Origin: a virus
DNA: 20,029 nt
Strand: one strand, 5' to 3'
Virus record (IMG/VR): IMGVR_UViG_3300025660_000034
Span: 1 to 20,029 of that record
Part shown: positions 16,313-20,029 of the stretch, one piece after another
Position numbering within the stretch: the first letter of the stretch is position 1
Layout of the letters: every line of letters starts with the position of its first letter
Program-made: the position numbers and the translations under genes
The notes under the pieces: model-generated
Databases searched by the model: none
The model's input: the letters and a program-made list of their open reading frames with translations, nothing else
What the model was told of the DNA's origin: nothing

Positions 16313-16547
16313 AGAATGCGCCGAGGTCCAAGTTGAGGTGTCCAAGATACTTCGTTTTGGTGCTGAAGAAGGTAATTTAAAGAACCTTGAAAAAGAGATA
16401 GGTGATGTTATTGCAATGATGGCTATCTTAGCACATCAAGGTATTATTAATGAAGACGTGATAATGCGTAGAGTCCCATCTAAACTACGAAAGTTAAAGA
16501 AGTATAGCGATATTAAAGATTTAGATATTATTATTAAAAGTTTATAA
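16284..16547 (+). CDS. Small MazG-like pyrophosphohydrolase
   Basis: 87 residues. EExxE at E10-E11 to E14 and ExxD at E38 to D41, in LAEECAEVQVEVSKILRFG and LEKEIGDVIAMM, are the metal-binding motifs of the MazG-like all-alpha fold. Minimal length for the fold. A second, divergent copy beside the 4569 gene, so the two likely act on different nucleotides. Its stop codon (16545-16547) lies inside the TATAAATA box at 16543, so early and late units abut directly. Confidence 0.82.
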   Translation: MNEALIILAEECAEVQVEVSKILRFGAEEGNLKNLEKEIGDVIAMMAILAHQGIINEDVIMRRVPSKLRKLKKYSDIKDLDIIIKSL

Positions 16548-16550
16548 ATA
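16543..16550 (+). promoter_or_regulatory. Late promoter box TATAAATA for rimK-like gene
   Basis: Exact match to the T4 late promoter -10 consensus. With T4 spacing (box at -13 to -6) transcription would begin at 16556, the A of the next ATG. The following five bases and start read GACTTATG, as in the second late box (TACTTATG). It overlaps the preceding stop codon. Confidence 0.7.
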
Positions 16551-16555
16551 GACTT

Positions 16556-17857
16556 ATGAAACTAGTAATACTAACCAAAGACGTTAAGTCTGAAACTGTT
16601 GAGCGTCTATCCACCGAAATGACTAAAACCGGTGGTGAAGTTTATGCGGTAAACCTTGAAGGTGCCTACCTTAAAGACAATAAGATATTCAACATCGATG
16701 ATAAGAAGGGATTTGAAATATCCCCTCAAGATACAGTCGTTGCTGTTCGCGGGTCAATCACCCTTAAAGACTCTTATTTAGACCTACTATCTCAAATAGA
16801 AAAACGAAAAATCATGACGGTCAACAACCGCTTGTGTAATGAGATATGTGCTGATAAATTCAGAACTTCAATTATCCTCGATGAGGCTGGTATAGCTCAA
16901 CCTAAGACCGCCTTAATTGCTATTGGTGATAATATCAAAACCAATTACCCTGAGCAAGCATTTAACAAACTAGATACTAAATTCCCAGTTATTCTTAAAA
17001 CCCTACGTGGTGCTAAAGGTATCGGTGTATTGCTTATTGAGAGTATGCAAGCTTTAGAATCTACTACCCAATTATTATATAAGCTTGATGAAAGCTCTGA
17101 TTTGTTATTACAAGAATATATTAAATCAGACTTTGATATTAGAGTGCATGTATTAAATGGTGAAATCATTGGGGTTATGCGACGCAACGTGCCAGATGAT
17201 GATTTTAGATCAAATTACGCGCAAGGTGCAACCACTGAAAAATATAAGCTATCTAAGAAAGAAGAGGAAGTTGCACTAGCAGCTGCTAACGCCGTTAGTG
17301 GTTATTGGGTTGGGGTAGATTTTATTCCTAATAAGGGTAATCCATTAGTACTTGAAGTGAATTCATCAGCAGGCACTGAGGGCATCGAGCAGACTATTGG
17401 ATCATCTATTAATAGAAAAGTAATTAAAACCATAACTAACTCAGATAATTGGATTAAAGCTAAAACTGTGATTGGTGTTAGAGAAATATTTGAATTTGAT
17501 TTGTTTGGTAAGATGAAGGCCAAATTAGATACTGGCAATTCTGTTAAGACTCTTGTTATGCATGCCGACGATCTTGTAGTTAAAAATGATAAAGTAACCT
17601 TTACATCCCACGGCCGTGAATATACAATGAAGCTGTATGGTATTAAAAAGATTAGATTAAATGGCGACAATGGATTAGAAGAGAGGCCTATGGTTATGTT
17701 AGACTTTACCTTTAATGGTGTTATTCATAAGAATGTAACCTTTACTTTAGATGATAGATCGACAAAAACAACTGAGGTATTAGTGAATAAAGATTGGATG
17801 ATTGATAACTCATTCATCATCGATCCTAGTCTGATGTATACTTTAGGAGAATTATAA
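16556..17857 (+). CDS. RimK-like ATP-grasp ligase fused to retropepsin-like protease domain
   Basis: 433 residues. Residues 1-295 form an ATP-grasp ligase of the RimK type: VILKTLRGAKGIGVLLIES (146-164), LLLQEYIKSDFDIRVHVLNG (183-202), VGVDFIPNKGNPLVLEVNSSAG (252-273) with metal ligands E267 and N269. RimK adds Glu to the C-terminus of ribosomal protein S6. Residues about 305-425 resemble the 'ATP-dependent zinc protease' family (RimB-like, retropepsin fold): AKLDTGNSVKTLVMHADDL with D325-T-G, REYTMKL, and KTTEVLVNKDWM. In bacteria these proteins often lie next to rimK genes. Preceded by a late promoter, hence probably made late; target could be ribosome or a virion protein. No ribosome-binding site is visible. 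Confidence 0.85.
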   Translation: MKLVILTKDVKSETVERLSTEMTKTGGEVYAVNLEGAYLKDNKIFNIDDKKGFEISPQDTVVAVRGSITLKDSYLDLLSQIEKRKIMTVNNRLCNEICADKFRTSIILDEAGIAQPKTALIAIGDNIKTNYPEQAFNKLDTKFPVILKTLRGAKGIGVLLIESMQALESTTQLLYKLDESSDLLLQEYIKSDFDIRVHVLNGEIIGVMRRNVPDDDFRSNYAQGATTEKYKLSKKEEEVALAAANAVSGYWVGVDFIPNKGNPLVLEVNSSAGTEGIEQTIGSSINRKVIKTITNSDNWIKAKTVIGVREIFEFDLFGKMKAKLDTGNSVKTLVMHADDLVVKNDKVTFTSHGREYTMKLYGIKKIRLNGDNGLEERPMVMLDFTFNGVIHKNVTFTLDDRSTKTTEVLVNKDWMIDNSFIIDPSLMYTLGEL

Positions 17858-17860
17858 ATA
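17853..17860 (+). promoter_or_regulatory. Late promoter box TATAAATA for kinase-like gene
   Basis: Exact T4-type late -10 box overlapping the stop codon of the rimK-like gene. With T4 spacing the first transcribed base is 17866, again the A of an ATG, and the sequence to it (TACTT) matches the other late box in 4 of 5 bases. AGGAG at 17845-17849 lies upstream of that start and would not be in the late mRNA. Confidence 0.7.
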
Positions 17861-17865
17861 TACTT

Positions 17866-18738
17866 ATGCATAATTTTAAAAGCTTTTTAGACGAAGGTAA
17901 ATCTGAGATGTTATCAGAGAAACTTATCATGTTGAATAATGGCCGTAAAGACGGCCAAATCGTATTCCTCGCGGGTGGTGCTGGTTCTGGTAAGGGATTT
18001 GCTGCTACAAACTTCATGGAGAAGGAAAAGTTTAAGGTAAGAGATGTTGATGAGTGGAAGAAAGTGTTTCAAAAGATTGCTGATACTCAAGCAAAGTATC
18101 CAGAAATAAAAGGATTAGACATGAAGAAACCTGCTGATGTTGCTAAGCTTCATATGTTCATTAAGAAACTTGGTCTTAAAGATAAGACACTTGACTTAAT
18201 GTTAGGGCAACTTAAAGATAGAAAGAAGTTACCTAATATCATGTTTGATATTACGGCTAAAGACACTAAAGATGTATCTCAATTCCTTCCAAGATTATTA
18301 ACAGCTGGTTATAACCCTGCCAACATTCATTTAGTATGGGTGTTAACCGATTATAAAATTGCGATTAAGCAGAATGCAGATAGAGATAGAGTTGTGCCTT
18401 CTGACATTATGTTGCAAACACATAAAGGCGCATCTGAAACTGTGTACTCATATGTCACAGGAGAAGGTAAGAAGATGCAAATTAATGGTGAGATACATGT
18501 AATTTTAAATAACAAAGAAAACACCGTTATGTTTACTCCTTCAGGCAATGATAGAACTTCTAAGATAAGTGGTAAGAAGAATGGCGTAGTTGTTAAAGAC
18601 TTTACATACTTAACATTAAAGAATCGCGGCAAAGCACTGATCAAAATAGATAAGGTAATGAAACAACTATACCATTGGGTAATGGATAATATACCAAAGT
18701 CTGATTTTCAAAAAGCATTAACGGATACAATTAAGTAA
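17866..18738 (+). CDS. P-loop kinase-like protein (zeta-toxin-like), possibly packaged in the capsid
   Basis: 290 residues. A Walker A loop AGGAGSGKGF (36-45) follows a strand QIVFLA; a DVDEWKK segment, NIMFDITAK and HLVWVLTDYKIAI with an R-D-R motif (A-D-R-D-R-V) follow, the layout of a P-loop nucleotide or zeta-toxin-like kinase. The C-terminal half (200-290) is not recognised. The N-terminus MHNFKSFLDEGKSEMLSEKL has FKSF and two LxE sites (L8-D-E10 and L16-S-E18), resembling T4 capsid-targeting sequences cleaved by the gp21 protease. If so, it is packaged into the head and enters the host with the DNA. Neighbour: a late promoter directly upstream. Fold likely, substrate unknown. Confidence 0.72.
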   Translation: MHNFKSFLDEGKSEMLSEKLIMLNNGRKDGQIVFLAGGAGSGKGFAATNFMEKEKFKVRDVDEWKKVFQKIADTQAKYPEIKGLDMKKPADVAKLHMFIKKLGLKDKTLDLMLGQLKDRKKLPNIMFDITAKDTKDVSQFLPRLLTAGYNPANIHLVWVLTDYKIAIKQNADRDRVVPSDIMLQTHKGASETVYSYVTGEGKKMQINGEIHVILNNKENTVMFTPSGNDRTSKISGKKNGVVVKDFTYLTLKNRGKALIKIDKVMKQLYHWVMDNIPKSDFQKALTDTIK

Positions 18739-18778
18739 TGCTAAAATTTAATAATAACAGCAGGAAAAATTAAATAAG

Positions 18779-20029
18779 ATGAAGTCATTTAAGTCTTTTG
18801 ATCTGGTTGAAGCTACAAACTTAACAGCTTCTGAATTAGAAAAACCCAATTCAATTACAAAGAAATCAAGAGTAGGTATATTAATTAGCCTTATTAAAGC
18901 GGGTACACCTCTTGAAATGGTTAAAGGTAAACCGTTCGTGGTTACCGATAAAGAATTAGCCTTAGCTGGCATAGAACAATTTAAGAAAGATGGTAAGAAC
19001 TTCGCTTTAGGTGTTGACGCGGCTGGTAAACCTATAATGAATAACCACCTTAAGAAATCAAAAGCTTTTGGCGGTGATGTAGCAGGTGCTGGTGGTGGTG
19101 CCGCAGCTACGGCAATCACAGAGTCTGCTCAATGTTTATGGTGTGCGGCCCTATTAGGTGAAGGACATACTAATCCTATTGAACATTTCACTGATGATGT
19201 CCTTAAAAAATATAAGTCATCTATTGATGTTGGCGGCACAAAGATGGTTGATATGCTAGGTATTGATGATGGTTGGAAAGAGTCTTCATACTTATCAGCA
19301 CAATACTTAATTAAAAAAGGTTATATTAATAAGAATCAAGTGTTCCATAGAGATTCAAAGAAGATGAACACCATATACGCGGCTAAGTCATTAGCGTTTA
19401 CTAATAATAATCTTGGTAAGTTTAATAATGATAAGTGGAACCCGGGAGATATCTGGGCTATCGATAAATCATTTGATATGAAATCATTAGATGCTACTAC
19501 CGTAAGACAATTGAATACCTCTATATTAGTAGCATTTAATAATAGAAGTTGTGTTGGTATTTCCCTTAAGAAAGTTGTTAAGAAAGCACAGAGTAATGAA
19601 TATAACATTAAATTACCACCTGATGTTGCTGACTTTAAAATGGTTAAATGCGAATTGTCCTCAAATAAAGGAACATTTTGGTCAGCCAAATCTGGTAAAG
19701 TAACATATGATGGTGGTGAAATGAGTATAGCACCTAATTCATCAATGGGTACTAATAAAATGGAACTAAGAAATAAAAATGCTAAAGGCGGCGGTATTGG
19801 TTGGGGTGTTATTATTGATTCTGCTAAAATGGTATTTGGTCGTAAGATGAGAACCCATAAACAAATTCGAAAATTAGCAATTGCAATTGCTAAGAAAAAA
19901 GATAAGAGAGCTATTAGCGTATTCTATAAAGCCATTAATGACACCTCAACTAAAATGTCAAGGGCGGAGTTTGAAGAGAATATAAGTAAAAAGGATGCTC
20001 CTTGGCTTTCTGGTAAATTGGGTGCAGTA
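18779..20029 (+). CDS. Long unknown protein, cut by window end; possible capsid-packaged protein
   Basis: Open for 417 codons from ATG 18779 to the last base with no stop, so it is C-terminally incomplete. The N-terminus MKSFKSFDLVEATNL shares FKSF plus an LxE site (L9-V-E11) with the preceding gene and resembles T4 internal-protein targeting sequences. Other features: a Gly/Ala-rich linker GGDVAGAGGGAAA (about residues 99-111), then TESAQCLWCAALL, and a basic C-terminal part (GRKMRTHKQIRKLAIAIAKKK). I do not recognise the family; proteins with a Gly-rich linker followed by ESAQC are known to me only as hypothetical T4-like phage proteins. AGGA lies 13 bases before the ATG; no TATAAATA is placed as at the two upstream genes. 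Probably late-expressed. Confidence 0.75.
   Translation, partial: MKSFKSFDLVEATNLTASELEKPNSITKKSRVGILISLIKAGTPLEMVKGKPFVVTDKELALAGIEQFKKDGKNFALGVDAAGKPIMNNHLKKSKAFGGDVAGAGGGAAATAITESAQCLWCAALLGEGHTNPIEHFTDDVLKKYKSSIDVGGTKMVDMLGIDDGWKESSYLSAQYLIKKGYINKNQVFHRDSKKMNTIYAAKSLAFTNNNLGKFNNDKWNPGDIWAIDKSFDMKSLDATTVRQLNTSILVAFNNRSCVGISLKKVVKKAQSNEYNIKLPPDVADFKMVKCELSSNKGTFWSAKSGKVTYDGGEMSIAPNSSMGTNKMELRNKNAKGGGIGWGVIIDSAKMVFGRKMRTHKQIRKLAIAIAKKKDKRAISVFYKAINDTSTKMSRAEFEENISKKDAPWLSGKLGAV

Follow-up and report, generated by a model that had tools for sequence, protein, structure and literature searches.

Two adjacent genes of a marine T4-like phage carry N-terminal tags that resemble the T4 capsid targeting sequence

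Introduction

In phage T4, the first ten residues of the internal protein IpIII are enough for packaging (PMC9026906). Within this capsid targeting sequence (CTS), residues 4 and 7 serve targeting and residues 8 and 10 serve processing by gp21, which cleaves after L/I-x-E (PMC9026906). The IpIII propeptide is annotated as ten residues, MKTYQEFIAE/A, in X04567 (slashes mark cleavage sites and domain or module boundaries throughout). A review of T4 already proposes that varied proteins are packaged via the CTS in T4-like phages (PMC9026906), and it is the only source in which our literature search found "capsid targeting sequence" together with "cyanophage".

A second body of work concerns enzymes in cyanophage virions. 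The virion list of S-CREM2 names three "regulatory" proteins (PMC10665884, Table 3). The S-CREM2 authors left packaging versus contamination undecided, with co-purification of abundant proteins a possibility, and their paper makes no mention of capsid targeting (PMC10665884). As cited by the same authors, a kinase was also reported in S-CRM01 virions (PMC10665884). Here we describe two neighbouring genes whose N-termini link these two bodies of work.

Results

The locus and its two N-terminal tags

The window, the whole stretch of DNA that was analysed, is a 20,029-base IMG/VR virus fragment. Annotation by reading identifies T4-type replication genes within it, encoding DNA polymerase, UvsX-like and gp41-like proteins, ThyX and dCMP deaminase, and the source virus is a marine, T4-like phage. 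Coordinates of the features are collected in Table 1.

Table 1. Positions of the tagged genes, their sequence elements and the upstream neighbour in the window.
Feature	Position	Strand	Remarks
P-loop kinase (zeta-toxin/PNK-like, PHROG_5268)	17866..18738	+	290 aa
CTS-like tag MHNFKSFLDE/ (kinase)	17866..17895	+	F4, F7, L8, E10
Second LxE site LSE18/K, start of kinase domain	17911..17919	+	in 32 relatives, L16 and E18 do not vary and residue 17 does
Walker A GGAGSGKG	17974..17997	+	invariant in relatives
phrog_1462 protein	18779..20029	+	417 aa read; 3' end past window edge
CTS-like tag MKSFKSFDLVE/ (phrog_1462)	18779..18811	+	F4, F7, L9, E11; one residue longer
RimK-like ATP-grasp fused to Zn_protease (PF05618) domain	16556-17857		own TATAAATA octamer; no tag
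TATAAATA, T4-type late-promoter octamer	17853..17860	+	5 nt before kinase ATG

The kinase reading frame begins MHNFKSFLDEGKSEMLSEKLIML and the phrog_1462 reading frame begins MKSFKSFDLVEATNLTASELEK. An earlier note on this DNA had claimed that the two adjacent genes share FKSF followed by LxE sites, and both N-termini are present as it described: LDE10 and LSE18 lie in the kinase and LVE11 in the phrog_1462 protein. It was also right that the remainder of the two proteins is unrelated, since one body matches PHROG_5268 (1e-51) and the other phrog_1462 (1e-34). The kinase N-terminus, MHNFKSFLDE/G, carries all four experimentally defined T4 CTS residues, and the phrog_1462 N-terminus, MKSFKSFDLVE/A, carries the same four with one residue inserted. 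Both proteins follow the targeting rule of aromatic residues at positions 4 and 7. Both also follow the (L/I)xE processing rule, displaced by one position in the second protein.

The same TATAAATA octamer that precedes the kinase gene is found at 16543-16550, before the ATP-grasp gene, and the phrog_1462 gene has no such octamer of its own upstream. G006, a 79.5-kb contig closely related to the window, has 22 copies of the octamer on the coding strand versus one on the other. As a separate observation, the octamer is followed by exactly 5 nt and an ATG at three of four sites in the window (16543-16550, 17853-17860 and 10054) and at 5 of 22 in G006 (2543, 35322, 38102, 62860 and 64170), not all of them gene starts. 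A late promoter at this spacing would place the transcription start close to the ATG, which suggests that such late mRNAs may be leaderless.

The protease evidence comes from G006, as the 20-kb window contains no protease gene. G006 encodes a portal, a gp21-type S77 protease, the scaffold protein gp22 and gp23; the protease and the T4-type scaffold were established by hmmscan (PF03420, 5e-43; PF25623). T4 gp23 is cleaved at FLTE/A. The G006 gp23 has KALNE/TRMAAGG at that position. Its phrog_1462 homologue is 456 aa long and is followed by a short reading frame (MKNLNEAAQSVLNE), a DUF6267 protein (MIKFKSHLTEA) and a cytidylyltransferase (MIHGFKEHYLTEK). Elsewhere, G006 (21423-23189; L110:1423-3189) encodes a 588-aa protein that starts MINFSALREA and in which ESVELEEA-like segments recur between small domains, an arrangement reminiscent of a polyprotein that the prohead protease would cleave several times.

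Agreement with published virion proteomes

When the strict-register motif was applied to the S-CREM2 genome (OR473000, ~210 ORFs), it matched only gp6, gp14 and gp154, which are the three virion "regulatory" proteins. These are a SAM hydrolase (MKDFDSFLEE), an APH/ChoK-like kinase ((V/M)KRFDAFLTE) and a cytidylyltransferase (MKNFSSFLTE). Of the ORFs detected in virions 3/50 have the motif, and of the remainder 0/160 (Fisher p = 0.013, resting on three matches). Another virion-detected protein, gp13, opens with MKDLHSFLTE; in the Cas9-like gp12, also from virions, RFASFMAE/A follows soon after the annotated start. The S-CRM01 virion kinase, looked up after the S-CREM2 result, begins MISFDQFLSE. 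Virion-detected cytidylyltransferase/NMNAT proteins start MKKFSAFLNEA in S-SM1 and MKSFLQFLKEA in S-SCSM1; that of S-SZBM1 starts MRFRQFIIEA, one residue short of the register.

The agreement has exceptions. The S-CREM2 kinase has an orthologue in S-N03 with a degenerate start only, MKSLKLFEGQE. In S-SCSM1, gp90 is a phrog_1462 protein adjoining the cytidylyltransferase and is annotated as "virion protein"; it lacks the tag, so packaging of this family may not need one. The untagged S-PM2 cytidylyltransferase was not detected in the virion study of that phage, which fits the model and weighs little because the study also missed known structural proteins. Our literature search found no virion proteomics covering this virus or this kinase family, including the RB43-like and Slopekvirus carriers, for which the single paper retrieved dealt with another genus. 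In cyanophages, the tag is followed by a ~60-aa module (LGL..GxGxYxDPxTGKxxxRTxDGxL) that the cytidylyltransferases share with the APH-like kinase and the Cas9-like protein, as in gp12 and gp14 of S-CREM2 (L330), and that may be a further packaging or adaptor element.

These data bear on the strongest alternative, that the two N-terminal peptides serve for docking to some other common partner, such as a tail or neck protein, the replisome or a chaperone, and not as a capsid address. Some tagged genes do adjoin replication genes, and a partner cannot be named from sequence alone. However, the T4 CTS register is matched position by position, prohead protease consensus included, and the virion-detected enzymes are tagged whereas neighbouring Dam, DenV and restriction-endonuclease genes are not. 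We consider a docking role improbable.

The tag is a module

The kinase family was seen in 206 phage records and 80 viral loci. Its match to Pfam Zeta_toxin (PF06414) is borderline (22.4 bits; cut-off 22.3), and this weak profile match together with the motifs suggests a place in the zeta-toxin/polynucleotide-kinase group of P-loop phosphotransferases. A PDB profile search gave no credible match. Among the larger genes beside the kinase, those for the RimK/Zn-protease and phrog_1462, none matches an antitoxin model. The searched genome contigs contained no chromosomal homologue of the kinase domain that could serve as an untagged outgroup.

Across ~45 distinct kinase N-termini, nearly all reach the kinase domain at LxE/K (or VE), while the rest of the tag is variable. 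The boundary reads LSE, LDE, LEE, LNE, LTE, LQE or LAE, and LVE in two cases; turnover within the tag, which stays FxxF-like, is illustrated by MKTFKQHLVE, MKKFNEFITE, MLSFQNYLTE and MKTFHQLRES. The shortest starts, MKKFSQFLTE/KLILISNG, have a CTS of exactly the T4 length. Since K19-L20 is invariant and may be the edge of the domain, the boundary LxE by itself is no proof of cleavage. The tag persists in remote homologues, namely those of RB43 (MKSFKDFVSLDE/A) and Aeromonas phage CC2 (MKMKFSEFVQLEE/K); KP27 has the kinase as well. The most distant clade (L062-L080, ~40% identity) keeps the LxE with a partial aromatic register, for example MIKDFILEVLTEEQLDE/K.

Two further observations concern kinase genes in other phages. 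In three loci the P-loop is split at GAG/SGK by an intein-like sequence (L060 1228-1608 and 1929-2861, G025 near 54114, and L359), with LAGGAG/CFSADTLV at one end and NMLVHN/SGKGF at the other. The interrupted gene is apparently two ORFs in L060 and G025 and a single ORF in L359 (Tenacibaculum phage PTm1 ORF187, IYVSGN/SGKGF). In L086 (884-1537), a different kinase of zeta/AAA_33 type with the tag MLPFKSFIEE lies directly upstream of phrog_1462, replacing the kinase of the window.

The phrog_1462 family has invariant residues E115, W-x-PAD224-I and G-x-SLK264, the order of which loosely recalls a PD-(D/E)XK nuclease; profile searches gave no Pfam match and no credible PDB match. Tagged members start MKSFKTYLSE, MKSFKQHFLTE, MKSFGSFLTE or MLKFSSFLSE. 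Other members are untagged, and the cyanophage proteins start at the domain. Similarly, the cytidylyltransferase is tagged in S-P4, S-SM1, Syn9 and S-H38 and starts directly at the catalytic domain in S-WAM2. The DUF6267 family, often met as a tagged neighbour, has the tag in G006 and G025 and lacks it in cyanophages S-P4 and S-SM1. Its invariant KxDGAP, QGD, EG(F/Y) and K-x-V would, at the motif level, resemble those of covalent nucleotidyltransferases or ligases; a PDB profile search gave no credible match, and phrog_455 unites it with the cytidylyltransferase. Because related proteins exist with and without it, the tag is a module, and this pattern of presence and absence is the behaviour of an added address label.

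Breadth of the tag

The strict-register motif replaced a first, looser motif that was dropped for lower specificity. At gene starts in 12 T4-like records it gave 18 matches, versus 1.4 expected from shuffles or 2.4 from internal Met positions. Within T4 it matched ipII, ipIII and gp61.1 only. The last of these (NC_000866 18966-19130) encodes a hypothetical protein that starts MKTFKEFIKED in full CTS register, and our literature search turned up no description of gp61.1 as an internal protein of the head. A search for further such N-termini, which the earlier note had suggested for the full proteome, returned 118 matches among 1,501 proteins encoded by related viral contigs, which had been retrieved with the kinase and phrog_1462 families as queries, versus 3.6 (shuffles) or 2.6 (internal Met) expected. 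After de-duplication, the remaining 113 proteins formed 26 clusters, including one that is a short spurious ORF, or ~25 families; 74 of the 113 lie outside the two seed families. Positions that the motif does not select are skewed as well (K2, S3, K5, Q/E6 and A11). The non-T4 controls phiKZ and SPO1 gave two and one matches, respectively, a chance-like level; a search of these two for the S77 family found no match and is not counted as evidence. By these gene-start counts, the tag occurs above chance.

That two adjacent genes both encode FKSF could also reflect a functionless 5' gene segment that was inherited in common or spread by recombination, or a translation signal at the DNA level. The codons argue otherwise: they are TTT AAA AGC TTT in the kinase gene and TTT AAG TCT TTT in the phrog_1462 gene, so the likeness resides at the protein level. 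Moreover, the tag pattern is kept despite residue turnover, in kinase relatives down to ~40% identity, and is present on ~25 families, which makes this explanation very improbable. Chance resemblance between two proteins, for which the shortness of the motif might speak, is scarcely credible given 118 matches against about 3 expected and the skew at unselected positions.

Discussion

The best explanation of the data as a whole is that both genes encode prohead cargo that is targeted by a CTS, trimmed by gp21 and ejected with the DNA. We give this reading a probability of about 0.82. The earlier note's view of the N-termini as T4-type CTSs is strongly backed by the T4 positional rules, the S77 protease of the relative, the LxE at the kinase boundary, the modularity of the tag and the agreement with virion proteomes of related phages. 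Targeting very likely works as it does for the T4 CTS, and entry of the two proteins into the prohead, their cleavage there and their ejection are very probable. Once injected, they may, as the earlier note proposed, act as host-takeover or defence-countering effectors.

In the mechanism that we propose, both proteins would be made late. The N-terminal CTS of 10-11 residues, with its aromatic residues 4 and 7, would bind the scaffold core of the prohead and so carry the proteins inside. A gp21-type S77 protease would then cut after LxE, in the kinase at E10 and/or E18 and in the phrog_1462 protein at E11, and the mature proteins would be freed within the capsid and later ejected along with the DNA. 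The kinase would probably act as a nucleotide or nucleic-acid phosphotransferase as infection starts, with the phrog_1462 protein, and its loosely nuclease-like residues, as a partner cargo.

The packaging mechanism is already known; the novelty lies in the kind and range of the cargo and in a sequence rule covering enzymes reported in cyanophage virions. The enzyme cargo is unexpectedly large. Tentatively, and with more doubt than confidence, we suggest that many marine T4-like phages use the common CTS to pre-load their heads with enzymes acting on nucleotides or nucleic acids. These enzymes would be injected with the genome and work before phage gene expression, for nucleic-acid repair or defence evasion. 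A possible set comprises the P-loop kinase, the ligase-like DUF6267 protein, the cytidylyltransferase and the nuclease-like phrog_1462 protein. The rule predicts head-loaded, injected proteins of T4-like phages from genome data alone, and points to about two dozen candidate cargo families as well as T4 gp61.1. It would also explain the repeatedly reported and doubted enzymes in cyanophage virions. Enzymes carried by the virus are the first to act on the host and its defences.

The closest described systems are T4 IpII and IpIII, which share with this locus a 10-residue N-terminal peptide with an aromatic residue at 4, F7, an aliphatic residue at 8, E10 and an L/I-x-E gp21 site, and in which the mature parts of the tagged proteins are likewise mutually unrelated. 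Unlike those small internal proteins, the tagged proteins of this locus are a P-loop kinase and the large phrog_1462 protein, the latter with a tag one residue longer and the former with an extra site at E18. The kinase resembles the zeta-toxin and polynucleotide kinase P-loop families (PF06414) in its Walker A and kinase motifs and differs from them in its N-terminal tag and its membership of PHROG_5268. The virion-associated enzymes of S-CREM2, S-SM1, S-SCSM1, S-SZBM1 and S-CRM01 bear the same N-terminal tag and were detected in virions; as cytidylyltransferase/NMNAT, APH-like kinase and SAM hydrolase, they belong to other enzyme families than the proteins described here.
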